Positions 8,461 to 14,850 of a DNA stretch of 21,384 nucleotides are shown here, piece after piece; within the stretch, counting starts at the first letter, position 1, and every line of letters starts with the position of its first letter. The DNA lies in the IMG/VR virus record IMGVR_UViG_3300042896_000289, positions 1 to 21,384 of that record; one strand, written 5' to 3'. Both the position numbers and the translations under genes were made by a program. The notes beneath the pieces were generated by a model. That model was not told where the DNA came from, searched no databases, and saw only the letters and a program-made list of their open reading frames with translations. This DNA is from a virus.

Positions 8461-8832
8461 TTATGTGCCATAATTAACCCACAGCTTATTTTCAACTGGA
8501 GAGTAATATTTTGTTATTTGCTTTTCGGCTTGACAACATTCAGCGTATGTTTCATATTCAGCTAAATAAACATCTTTAAAATCCTTTCTATATTTATGCC
8601 AACTTAATCTACAAGACAGATTAAAAGATCTACCTACATAAATAACTTCATCATCCTTTAAAAGCAAATAAACAAAATATCTACCCTTTACTTTATTTAG
8701 CTTTTGAGTTATTTCAGACCGACATATTACGGCACATAACATCGGTTTTGCAAAAGCAAGGGCTTCATCGGTAATTTGAACTAATCGGAAATTCCGAACG
8801 GTTCGTTTATCATCCTTCATAGAAAGTATCAT
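8461..8832 (-). CDS. GIY-YIG nuclease-domain protein
   Basis: A single GIY-YIG domain fills the C-terminal half. 'GRYFVYLLLKDDEVIYVGRS' gives the paired tyrosine strands (YVY-L and IYVG in place of GIY and YIG), followed by the catalytic-region Arg and His in 'LSCRLSWHKYRK', the metal-binding Glu in 'CQAEKQITKYYSP' and the final Asn in 'VENKLW'. The N-terminal about 50 residues are not recognised. GIY-YIG enzymes make hydrolytic DNA cuts; free-standing phage copies may be homing endonucleases or host/competitor-DNA nucleases. It is the third gene of the leftward xre operon. The start is uncertain: GTG at 8847, ATG at 8832 or ATG at 8820; all overlap the upstream small gene, and the ATG at 8832 is used here. 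Confidence 0.8.
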   Translation of the reverse strand: MILSMKDDKRTVRNFRLVQITDEALAFAKPMLCAVICRSEITQKLNKVKGRYFVYLLLKDDEVIYVGRSFNLSCRLSWHKYRKDFKDVYLAEYETYAECCQAEKQITKYYSPVENKLWVNYGT

Positions 8833-8932
8833 CTTCGTTATTCTCACTCCTTTTTCGTGATCTCTTTGAGGTTAGAATCGAAATCATTGCAGCCCAAAAG
8901 ATAAGGATGCCAATTACTATGAGGTCTTTCAT
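8810..8932 (-). CDS. 40-residue single-TM peptide between xre and GIY-YIG
   Basis: This short leftward frame encodes 40 residues: MKDL, then a hydrophobic helix (about residues 4-20, LIVIGILIFWAAMISIL), then a strongly basic stop-transfer segment (TSKRSRKRSE) and an acidic tail (NNEDDTFYEG). Its ATG overlaps the xre stop codon as ATGA, the same coupling used throughout this genome, which is the main reason to believe it is real. It also overlaps the start region of the GIY-YIG gene. Topology is probably N-out/C-in. Function is unknown; small basic-tailed membrane peptides next to phage repressors can be superinfection-exclusion or toxin-like factors, but nothing here proves that. Confidence 0.6.
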   Translation of the reverse strand: MKDLIVIGILIFWAAMISILTSKRSRKRSENNEDDTFYEG

Positions 8933-9641: not shown

Positions 9642-9849
9642 CAAAGAAAAGGCAAGTAGTAAAGCAATATTTGATCATTTGTGTGATCAGATGCACAAGT
9701 TAAGCGCAAAGTTAATCAGCGTTGAAGATGCAAAGGCACAAGCAAACCTCGCAAAACAAGCAAATAATGTTATGAAGTATGAACTTGACAGGGGAATTGC
9801 TTATGCAAAGTTTGGAGATAAGATGCATATTTTTGAACTGGACCGTTAA
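9628..9849 (+). CDS. Small helical protein upstream of recT
   Basis: The 73-residue protein is predicted to be helical throughout: 'SKAIFDHLCDQMHKLSAKLI' then 'VEDAKAQANLAKQANNVMKYEL', with Ala/Lys spacing that suits a coiled coil. No signal peptide, membrane segment or catalytic motif is visible. Its position directly before recT and overlap with the preceding gene place it in the recombination operon, where small accessory proteins are common, but I recognise no family. Confidence 0.6.
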   Translation: MGLISKEKASSKAIFDHLCDQMHKLSAKLISVEDAKAQANLAKQANNVMKYELDRGIAYAKFGDKMHIFELDR

Positions 9850-10743: not shown

Positions 10744-11432
10744 TGGACTTTAGCAAAGTATTATTCAGGTGTAGTTCACTAGGCAAAATTATGACAGACC
10801 CTCGGAGTAAATCCGAGGTTCTTTCCTCAACCTGCATAGATGAACTTATAAAGGTGTACGCAAAGGTGAAATATGGTCGCAGTCGAGATATTACTTCTAA
10901 GTACTTGGAAAAAGGAATTGCGATGGAAGAAGAAGCTATTACGCTATATTCTAAATTTAAACGTGATTATTTCGTAAATAACAAAGCGAGGATGAGCAAT
11001 GATTTCATCACAGGTGAATGGGACATCTTAAAGAGCGAGGTTGTAACCGATACAAAATGCAGTTGGGATCTGATTACATTCTTAAAGGCTTCCAAAGGTG
11101 AAATCAACAAAGACTACTTCTATCAATTGCATGGCTACATGGCATTGACTGGAGCAAAGTCTGCTGTTGTTGCCTATTGTTTGGTGAACACTCCTGAGAA
11201 TCTCGTTCAATCTGAGATCAAATCGACTTGGTATAAGATGGGATGTCCTGATGAATCGTCTGATGAATGGCAAAATGTTGTTCAAGAAATTCAAATGTTG
11301 GGAAAATACGACGATATCCCGGTATCAGAACGTGTATTTGAGTTCAATATTGAGCGAGATGAGGCAATAATTGAGAAAATAAACAGTCGTGTAACTCAAT
11401 GTAGGCAATGGATGCAAGATAATTTTAAATAA
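10740..11432 (+). CDS. YqaJ-type (lambda-exonuclease-like) recombinase exonuclease
   Basis: The 230-residue protein has the PD-(D/E)XK nuclease layout of YqaJ/lambda Exo enzymes. An N-terminal 'RCSSLGKIMTDP' substrate segment is followed by a helix with acidic residues (GIAMEEEAI, 59-67). The catalytic core is Asp95 in 'TGEWDIL' and Asp104-x-Lys106 in 'VVTDTKCSW', followed by the 'YFYQLHGYMALTGA' helix with the motif Gln. It would degrade the 5' strand of DNA ends to expose single strands for RecT, for recombination and genome circularisation or concatemer formation. The gene is translationally coupled to recT. The core Asp is followed by T-x-K rather than the usual ExK, an allowed variation in this fold. 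Confidence 0.88.
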   Translation: MMDFSKVLFRCSSLGKIMTDPRSKSEVLSSTCIDELIKVYAKVKYGRSRDITSKYLEKGIAMEEEAITLYSKFKRDYFVNNKARMSNDFITGEWDILKSEVVTDTKCSWDLITFLKASKGEINKDYFYQLHGYMALTGAKSAVVAYCLVNTPENLVQSEIKSTWYKMGCPDESSDEWQNVVQEIQMLGKYDDIPVSERVFEFNIERDEAIIEKINSRVTQCRQWMQDNFK

Positions 11433-12972: not shown

Positions 12973-13172
12973 CAAACCTAACTATTTATAAAAGGGCGCA
13001 TGAATTGACCTTTGTTCAGTTCTGTCGGTGGATGAACTCACGTAGAATCCGTAATTCCAATAACGCAAGAACTTTGCCTTCCTCCGTTGTCGAATGTAAT
13101 GAGGTTGGCAGCTCGATAACAATAGTAACAAAATTAAAAGGCGCATTGCCTATTTACGAAGATGTGGATTAA
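12969..13172 (+). CDS. Small basic hypothetical protein, last of the early small-gene run
   Basis: The 67-residue protein is basic in its first half ('YKRAHELTFVQFCRWMNSRR', then 'IRNSNNARTL') and beta-leaning in its second ('SSITIVTKLKGALPIYEDVD'). The Arg/Trp-rich helix could contact nucleic acid, though no known DNA-binding fold is evident. It is coupled to the previous gene by an ATGA overlap. A promoter box follows 5 bases after its stop codon, marking the end of this block. Confidence 0.55.
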   Translation: MTNLTIYKRAHELTFVQFCRWMNSRRIRNSNNARTLPSSVVECNEVGSSITIVTKLKGALPIYEDVD

Positions 13173-13177
13173 ATAGT

Positions 13178-13185
13178 TATATTTG
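13178..13185 (+). promoter_or_regulatory. -7 promoter box TATATTTG upstream of the structured RNA
   Basis: TATATTTG matches TAnnTTTG exactly. A weak -33-like TTTAC at 13153-13157 lies 20 bases upstream. Transcription would start near 13190 and give a leader or small RNA of about 120 bases that ends at the terminator before the helicase gene. No other promoter box is visible between the terminator and the helicase start. Confidence 0.55.
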
Positions 13186-13189
13186 CAAA

Positions 13190-13308
13190 GTCCAAACGGA
13201 CAATCAAGCAGGCTGGAATCTGATTGATAGAGAAACTTAAACATCCCTGTCAGGGAGCAGAGCCAACAGAAATGTTGATTCCAACTGCAAACTGACAGGG
13301 ATTTTTTT
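13190..13308 (+). ncRNA. Structured RNA or attenuator leader before the helicase gene
   Basis: This 140-base gap holds several complementary segments. CAATCA (13201-13206) pairs with TGATTG (13221-13226). ATCCCTGTCAG (13243-13253) pairs perfectly with CTGACAGGGAT (13292-13302), which runs into a T-tract. TGGAATC (13214-13220) is fully complementary to GATTCCA (13277-13283) inside the terminator loop, which would make a pseudoknot. The first terminator arm can also fold on itself (CCCTGTCAGGG, 13245-13255), an alternative that would break the terminator. The layout of promoter, folded RNA and terminator is that of a phage small RNA or a regulated attenuator. No known RNA family is recognised; transcription is inferred. 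Confidence 0.5.
13243..13308 (+). terminator. Intrinsic terminator with long loop, 3 bases before the helicase ATG
   Basis: A perfect 11-bp stem, ATCCCTGTCAG at 13243-13253 and CTGACAGGGAT at 13292-13302, encloses a 38-base loop and is followed by a run of seven T (13302-13308). The helicase ATG is at 13312. Genes downstream therefore need read-through, antitermination or a promoter that I do not see. The loop is longer than in standard terminators, which favours a regulated structure. Confidence 0.65.
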
Positions 13309-13311
13309 ATT

Positions 13312-14850
13312 ATGGAATTACGAGAATACCAAGAGCGATTTGTTGAGAACATTGCTAGATCGCTAAAGGACAACAGGCGAATCATTGCCCAACTTGCTAC
13401 GGGTGGAGGCAAGACAGTTACATTCAGCGCAATTGCTAAACGATTCAATGAGAAATCAAAGCAAAGGGTTCTGATCCTTGTCCATCGGATGGAGTTGCTT
13501 AATCAGGCTGTTAAGACTATTGAACGCAACACAGGATTGAAAGCTGTTGGAATCGTTGCAGGGATGAAATCAATTCCGGATGCACAGGTTTACGTGGCAA
13601 TGGTTGAAACAACGCACAGGCGATTGGACAAATTGCCTGACTTTGGATTGATTATAATTGATGAGGCGCACATCGGGAACTTTACAAAACTTATTGAACA
13701 TTTTAACGATAAGTTCATTATCGGGTTTACAGCTACTCCGATCGCATCGAAAAAGGATAAGCCTTTGAAGAATTATTTTAAAGACATCGTTTGTGGGGTT
13801 TCGATTGGTGAACTTATTAATGATGGACATCTTTGCAAGGCTTATACTTTTGGAGTTGAACAGGAGATTGATCGCGCGAAATTAAAAATGGTTAAGGGCG
13901 ATTTCGATATTCAGCAAATGGCTATGATGATGTCAGCTAACAAGTACATCGAATCGGTCGTTAATAATTACGCGAAACTTGCAATCAATCAAAAAACATT
14001 AATCTTCAATTGCAACGTAGAACATTCGAAAATAGTAACTAAGGCATTTACAGATCGGAATTACAATGCGCGACATCTTGATGGGGAAATGACAGTTCAG
14101 CAGCGCGAGGAGATTATGAAATGGTTTAACGATACACCAGACGCAATACTCTGCAATATCGGAATCGCAACAACCGGGTTTGATCAACCTGACATTAAAT
14201 GTATAATCGTTAATCGCGCGACAGCTTCAATGCCTCTATGGTTACAGATGTGCGGACGTGGATCTCGTCCTTCTAATGGCAAACATTTTTTTACAATCAT
14301 TGATTTTGGAGGCAACACGACAACTCATGGAGATTGGCAAGACGATCGGGATTGGAACTACTTATTTCACAATCCTGCTAAAAAAGGAAACGGGGTTGCT
14401 CCAATGAAGAAATGTCCGAAATGTAGTGGATATGTTCACACACGCATTATGGTTTGCCCGATGCCATCACCAGTTCAAACGATTGACTTGTTCTCTGATT
14501 CTTATTCCGATTTAACTTGCGGTTATAAATGGGAGGTAAAAGAAATTACCGAACTTGAACCTGCTGAAATTGTTTCATTAACTAAGGGTGTTGATGTTCA
14601 GCATTTTATTGACTTTGTTCAGAACGAAGGGAGCAAAGAATATAGAGGTTTGTTCATGTCATTAGATAAATATATTTACATTGCAGCTTCCAAAAGCATT
14701 CCTTTAAATACTGCAAAACGTGAAGTTATTATCTCAGGTTGCGAGAAATTAGCACGTGAATGGTCGCAAAAGGTAGGTCATAAAACTGCTAGGGCTGCTT
14801 TATTTGTCGCAAGAAAACACACCGAAAAAGAACTAATTAAACTTTTATAA
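13312..14850 (+). CDS. Superfamily 2 DEAH-box helicase with C-terminal zinc finger
   Basis: The 512-residue protein has the SF2 helicase motifs in order: Q-like 'LREYQERFVENI' (3-14), Walker A 'ATGGGKT' (29-35), motif Ia 'LVHRMELLNQ' (56-65), DEAH (117-120), motif III-like 'FTATP' (139-143), motif IV 'LIFNCNVEHS' (230-239), motif V 'IATTGFDQPD' (285-294) and motif VI 'QMCGRGSRPS' (312-321). A cysteine cluster follows (CPKC 368-371, Cys382, Cys403), probably a zinc finger with an inserted loop, then a helical C-terminal region. It would unwind DNA at the phage fork or in recombination, paired with the primase encoded 2 bases downstream. It resembles RecG/RadD-like phage helicases in general form. 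The ATG follows a terminator structure directly. Confidence 0.92.
   Translation: MELREYQERFVENIARSLKDNRRIIAQLATGGGKTVTFSAIAKRFNEKSKQRVLILVHRMELLNQAVKTIERNTGLKAVGIVAGMKSIPDAQVYVAMVETTHRRLDKLPDFGLIIIDEAHIGNFTKLIEHFNDKFIIGFTATPIASKKDKPLKNYFKDIVCGVSIGELINDGHLCKAYTFGVEQEIDRAKLKMVKGDFDIQQMAMMMSANKYIESVVNNYAKLAINQKTLIFNCNVEHSKIVTKAFTDRNYNARHLDGEMTVQQREEIMKWFNDTPDAILCNIGIATTGFDQPDIKCIIVNRATASMPLWLQMCGRGSRPSNGKHFFTIIDFGGNTTTHGDWQDDRDWNYLFHNPAKKGNGVAPMKKCPKCSGYVHTRIMVCPMPSPVQTIDLFSDSYSDLTCGYKWEVKEITELEPAEIVSLTKGVDVQHFIDFVQNEGSKEYRGLFMSLDKYIYIAASKSIPLNTAKREVIISGCEKLAREWSQKVGHKTARAALFVARKHTEKELIKLL

Follow-up and report, generated by a model that had tools for sequence, protein, structure and literature searches.

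An apparently undescribed family of leader RNAs in Bacteroidota phages, with predicted kissing between a 5′ hairpin and a terminator loop

Several described systems share parts of the design considered here. Phage HK022 carries putL and putR, two-hairpin leader RNAs made soon after the promoter that work in cis and serve more than one operon. In ColE1 RNAI/RNAII and in CopA/CopT, RNA loops kiss over about 7 nt, and in the Bacteroidota the promoter −7 box follows the consensus TAnnTTTG. Type III toxin–antitoxin loci have the same order of promoter, pseudoknot RNA, terminator and gene as the locus described below; however, they usually consist of a tandem-repeat RNA followed by a toxin, whereas our locus has a single RNA copy followed by a ResIII/phrog_16 helicase. 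A type III assignment, for which we demanded a tandem-repeat RNA together with a ToxN-like toxin gene, was rejected.

The window, by which we mean the whole 21,384-nt stretch analyzed, is a fragment of a virus record that encodes RecT, an exonuclease, a helicase, a primase/VapE-like protein and a terminase. It also contains a lone minus-strand ORF (8461-8847) with a weak match (E 3e-4) to the phage endonuclease family phrog_1111, and a terminator-like hairpin within the exonuclease gene (10800-10818). The intergenic gap 5′ of the helicase spans 13173-13311. There, the initial annotation had proposed a promoter box, a 6-bp hairpin, an 11-bp terminator stem whose T-run stops 3 bases short of the helicase ATG, a 7-bp complementarity reaching from upstream into the terminator loop, and a small hairpin formed by the first terminator arm alone. 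All of these lie at the bases it gave, and the complementarity is perfect. The parts are as follows.

13178-13185, plus strand: promoter −7 box of the Bacteroidota type, TATATTTG, read from the sequence
13190-13201, plus strand: small GTCC/GGAC hairpin in the interval between promoter and P1, from folding; found only in the window and in the identical L002
13201-13226, plus strand: P1, the 5′ hairpin CAATCA/TGATTG, with a 14-nt loop ending in L1, read from the sequence
13201-13206 and 13221-13226, plus strand: the 6-bp arms of P1, CAATCA and TGATTG
13214-13220, plus strand: L1, the kissing loop TGGAATC, perfect complement of 13277-13283; covaries in relatives
13227-13242, plus strand: A/U-rich linker, ATAGAGAAACTTAAAC; such a linker averages 18 nt in the 67 family members
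13243-13302, plus strand: P2, the intrinsic-terminator hairpin, from sequence and fold; homologues have it at the same position with double-sided changes
13243-13253 and 13292-13302, plus strand: 11-bp basal stem of P2, ATCCCTGTCAG and CTGACAGGGAT, read from the sequence
13254-13256 and 13289-13291, plus strand: 3x3 internal loop GGA/AAA in the terminator; similar GA-type loops recur at this place
13257-13260 and 13285-13288, plus strand: P4, the 4-bp stem GCAG/CTGC in the terminator
13264-13277, plus strand: P3, an inserted hairpin CAACA-GAAA-TGTTG with a GNRA tetraloop, from folding
13277-13283, plus strand: L2, the kissing partner GATTCCA in the terminator loop, read from the sequence
13302-13308, plus strand: T-run of the terminator, ending 3 bases 5′ of the start codon
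13312-14850, plus strand: downstream gene, a ResIII/DEAD-type phage DNA helicase of 512 aa (Pfam PF04851, phrog_16), with its ATG at 13312

Thermodynamic folding places this RNA at z = −4.34, with none of 200 shuffles equally stable. The predicted L1–L2 contact is a loop–loop (kissing) interaction between two hairpins. Equivalents of the GAAA-capped P3 occur in L003, L004, L025, L026 and L018. The alternative hairpin of the first terminator arm (TCCC 13244-13247 with GGGA 13253-13256) is also seen in L003, L004 and L005 and is not general in the family. No terminator lies 5′ of the window’s promoter, which would allow transcription of the early operon to continue into the gap.

To place this RNA in a wider context, we collected relatives of the helicase from viral contigs and compared their upstream gaps. 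The gap of L002 is identical to that of the window. In L003, L004 and L021, the upstream gene is nearly that of the window and TATATTTGCAAAGT is shared, after which the RNA has diverged with its architecture kept; the promoter box TATATTTG is retained in these three and appears as TATCTTTG in L026 and as TAAATTTG in L025. The kissing pairs are GGTCAGAGC/GCTCTGACC in L003, GGTAGAAGC/GCTTCTACC in L004, GTGGAATC/GATTCCAC in L025, GTGAGAAC/GTTCTCAC in L026, CCGGCA/TGCCGG in L005 and TGAGAT/ATCTCA in L021. In an ungapped alignment of L003, L004, L025 and L026, standard pairs occupy 98% of cells, compared with 87% for shuffled controls, and a one-base shift of the partners brings pairing below 50%; the kissing helix itself is paired in 97% of cells, with double-sided changes at four of its nine pairs. 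The G-U pairs within the helices point to an RNA, not a DNA palindrome, as the target of selection. The small GTCC/GGAC hairpin is missing in the aligned homologues, and its insertion places the window’s P1 15 nt past the box, so that the window cannot be aligned with them column by column; its membership in the family rests on having the same parts, in the same order, at the same position. Although the upstream gene is near-identical through TATATTTGCAAAGT, the helicases of L021 and the window share only 52% identity, and comparison of window positions 13100-13312 with L021 and L003 suggests that recombination has joined sequences at the RNA element.

A descriptor scan revealed further copies before other genes. 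Using a pattern blind to pairing, in which a promoter box is followed about 65–130 bases on by a T-run and an ATG, we found 74 loci in 2.9 million viral contigs, versus a single locus with the reversed pattern. A kissing pair of at least 6 nt that joins the terminator loop to the loop of a hairpin is present in 37 of 43 distinct pattern-selected instances, and one of at least 7 nt in 35; in control chimeras, made by swapping the 5′ halves of instances, the corresponding rates are 6.1% and 2.5%, so the complementarity seen in the window is above chance across the family. Pruning by hand left a curated set of 67 distinct members, a few of which may be false, with 58 distinct loop sequences and up to four copies per phage contig. 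The window itself has the characters of the family: a TAnnTTTG box near P1, complementary loops, and a T-run no more than about 30 nt from a start codon.

Alignments across this wider set tell the same story as the helicase gaps. In seven members that precede endonuclease, helicase and other genes, the kissing helix is 100% paired, with three of seven pairs changed on both sides; in four members that include Flavobacterium phages snusmum6-2 and FCV-1, all eight pairs are maintained and five are double-changed. When covariation is scored over all helices, the kissing helix among them, none of 500 shuffles reaches the observed score. The initial annotation had named compensatory changes in homologous gaps as the check on its promoter–pseudoknot–terminator RNA; three independent alignments show strong pseudoknot covariation, supporting a structured RNA that recurs as a family. 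The loops are not, however, the fastest-changing part of it. Between close relatives (45 pairs), change amounts to 5.0% in L1 and 8.8% in L2, compared with 13.1% in P1 and 10.5% in the terminator stem, the exception being the small subgroup of the window, in which loops are about as variable as stems. Because loops vary less than stems in close relatives, we rejected diversifying selection on them of the kind expected for immunity or incompatibility specificity.

Searches for a described counterpart gave none. Neither the window nor 13 member-bearing loci scored above the gathering threshold of any Rfam 15 covariance model, and the gap alone gave nothing credible at E values up to 10. In 395 bacterial genomes from the phylum of G002, the pattern had two chromosomal matches, judged to be chance: one resembles a tRNA gene, and the other contains no element by eye. 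The published literature that we searched describes no such element and yielded no relevant phage transcriptome; one study (PMC8092290) offers RNA-seq of F. columnare, from uninfected cells only. Among annotated isolates, none gave a usable match to the replication-initiator proteins used as queries, and scanning did not detect the element in Cellulophaga phages phi12:1, phi17:1 and phi46:1, in Flavobacterium phage lotta8-1, or in the part of crAss-like cr106_1 that was scanned. Within the samples searched, then, the element apparently represents an undescribed family of structured leader RNAs that occurs in Bacteroidota phages and is restricted to phages, as judged by sequence comparison.

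Examination of the genomic context shows that the members serve a variety of genes. By sequence likeness, those next downstream encode ResIII helicases, other helicases or ATPases, probable replication initiators, a RecA-like ATPase and recombinases, as well as NUMOD4/HNH and GIY-YIG endonucleases. Phages with multiple copies carry them with different loop pairs before different genes: Flavobacterium phage snusmum6-2 has three (at 9708, 13649 and 14684), mumin6-1 has two, and F. columnare phage FCV-1 has two (at 35865 and before the gene at 40457), the latter of which is present in 65 F. columnare-type phage records. An intrinsic terminator lies directly 5′ of the element’s promoter in 9 of the 67 members, versus 0.07% in shuffles, so that in these nine the downstream gene is apparently reachable only via the leader. 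This upstream terminator adjoins and often overlaps the promoter (L014, L106, L108, L115, L117, L118, L120, L215 and L267). Near-identical leaders precede related NUMOD4/HNH endonuclease genes on different contigs in L212, L220, L228, L241 and L264, as if leader and endonuclease moved together as one cassette. A short leader of the same design lies about 100 nt upstream of position 3001 in L184, before a helicase 54% identical to that of L018; L184 was assigned to a Peregrinibacteria MAG, of another phylum, and is probably a binned phage contig.

The members also share a characteristic anatomy. P1 is found in every curated member, in most starting 1–6 nt past the promoter box and near the expected transcript start. 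Directly after the terminator stem, T occupies four positions by definition and 88% of the positions thereafter. Recurring internal loops in the terminator are GGA/GAA, GGA/AAA, GAGTA/GAAA, AAGTA/GAAA and 4x4 loops such as TGAT/TGAT and GGAT/TGAA, which are presumably tandem or sheared G-A modules. L199, L109, L120, L106 and L238 carry a sarcin-ricin-like bulged-G loop (GAGTA/GAAA or AAGTA/GAAA) inside an intrinsic terminator, and at this site of the stem such loops exchange with GGA/GAA and TGAT/TGAT. This exchangeability suggests a structural or protein-facing role and no ligand pocket. A model in which the linker spans a coaxial rod, such that a longer rod has a longer linker, was discarded, the correlation between the two being negative.

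The fixed order of promoter, folded leader, terminator and start codon leads us to read the element as a cis-acting transcription-attenuator leader RNA in which the kissing contact clamps or tunes the terminator, an interpretation that we hold to be probable, with real room for doubt. Its architecture, covariation, position before a start codon, recurrence across genes and restriction to phages within the samples searched come from sequence and comparison, and we infer the termination, the regulation and the existence of a regulator. Host RNA polymerase would start at the TATATTTG promoter and make a leader of about 110–120 nt, in which P1, at or near the 5′ end, would display L1. The second hairpin would be the intrinsic terminator, with L2 in its apical loop, and L1 and L2 would kiss. 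Most transcripts would stop in the T-run before the helicase start codon, and read-through would yield the helicase/primase mRNA. A compact fold built from the A/U-rich linker, the GA-rich internal loop and the kissing of the two loops would set terminator efficiency, and a phage- or host-encoded factor would probably act on all copies in a genome.

Because L2 is transcribed before the 3′ arm of the terminator, L1 and L2 can pair first and then aid or hinder terminator closure; the sequence does not decide which. We looked for a classical, mutually exclusive antiterminator and discarded it, as pairing of the terminator’s 5′ arm with P1 and the linker did not exceed that in swapped controls (p = 0.78). 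In the absence of such a helix, any switch would work otherwise than by the usual choice between two exclusive helices. The element-bearing contigs, which are partial, revealed no candidate regulator protein in common. With no antiterminator, linker–rod relation, fast-evolving loops or shared regulator, both regulation by an added factor and a fixed level of read-through remain possible.

Other readings of the same anatomy must be weighed. The initial annotation had allowed for a new attenuator and, alternatively, for a stable small RNA, a pair of classes that covariation and family recurrence support in the absence of transcript data. A trans-acting small RNA with targets elsewhere, leaving the downstream gene to its own signals, would explain why the element is a complete transcription unit with a hairpin near its 5′ end and a terminator, and by inference its compact fold should resist nucleases. 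However, among 34 members not selected for an ATG, an ORF starts within 30 nt of the T-run in 30, versus 5.8% for control T-runs; moreover, the genes served are various, the loops are paired intramolecularly, and in close homologues the kissing pair is kept rather than diversified, giving no sign of change driven by targets. We consider such an RNA quite unlikely, and the constant position before a start codon favours the attenuator over it, as far as sequence alone can tell. A leader acting on translation or mRNA stability, in which ribosome access or protection of the mRNA 5′ end would depend on the hairpin and T-rich spacer and the T-run is no terminator, would fit both the nearness of P1 to the transcript 5′ end and the narrow spacing between T-run and ATG (10–12 nt in 49 of 67 members, in part an effect of the search pattern). 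Yet a T-run immediately after a GC-rich stem resembles an intrinsic terminator and not an A-rich translation enhancer, and this reading too seems unlikely to us.

A strong, unregulated terminator or insulator behind a weak promoter, in which kissing only boosts termination and so limits potentially harmful genes, is consistent with the failure to find an antiterminator helix and with the frequent position before HNH/NUMOD4 endonucleases, which are commonly kept low. We rate it the least probable of these three, given that genes required early, those for helicases and replication initiators, also follow the element, and that a dedicated promoter is retained just upstream. Beyond the single-locus attenuator, we can suggest, tentatively and without expecting it to hold, a phage-only regulon of RNA gates, in which the kissing-loop terminators of many transcription units in one phage have differing loop pairs and a common fold and would be opened jointly by one phage or host factor, or else by the fold itself contacting RNA polymerase directly. 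If true, this would time the passage from early to replication expression with no DNA-binding regulator.

The initial annotation was right about the structure and the likely class, and the element is more general than it supposed. Regulation in Bacteroidota phages is poorly known, and a recurrent RNA element would offer a first handle on the timing of replication genes, with a testable fold that is present in isolated Flavobacterium phages. The design, in which a terminator loop would kiss a 5′-proximal hairpin and a GA-rich module sits inside the terminator stem, is an attenuator fold missing from Rfam, and would be a compact gene-control part for Bacteroidota. By its anatomy the family is apparently a novel attenuator variant; its function is inferred without expression data.

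Comparison with known systems places the leader among familiar parts in an unfamiliar arrangement. It resembles classical terminator attenuators and riboswitch expression platforms in having a promoter, a structured leader and an intrinsic terminator just 5′ of a coding sequence, but we found no antiterminator helix, conserved ligand-like core or visible leader peptide, and its GA-rich internal loops are interchangeable. The purine and guanidine-II/mini-ykkC riboswitches likewise join two hairpins by loop–loop pairing; in contrast to their conserved ligand-binding loop or core, the leader has 58 loop sequences in 67 members, and one of its hairpins is the terminator. Its kissing length is similar to the roughly 7 nt of ColE1 RNAI/RNAII and CopA/CopT, but those contacts are intermolecular, between sense and antisense RNAs, whereas here a single RNA carries both loops, and close relatives show no diversification of the pair such as hypervariable plasmid-type loops undergo. 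Like HK022 put, it is a two-hairpin phage leader near its promoter; put, however, has no terminator or kissing loops of its own and makes polymerase ignore later terminators, whereas the second hairpin of the leader described here is itself the predicted terminator.
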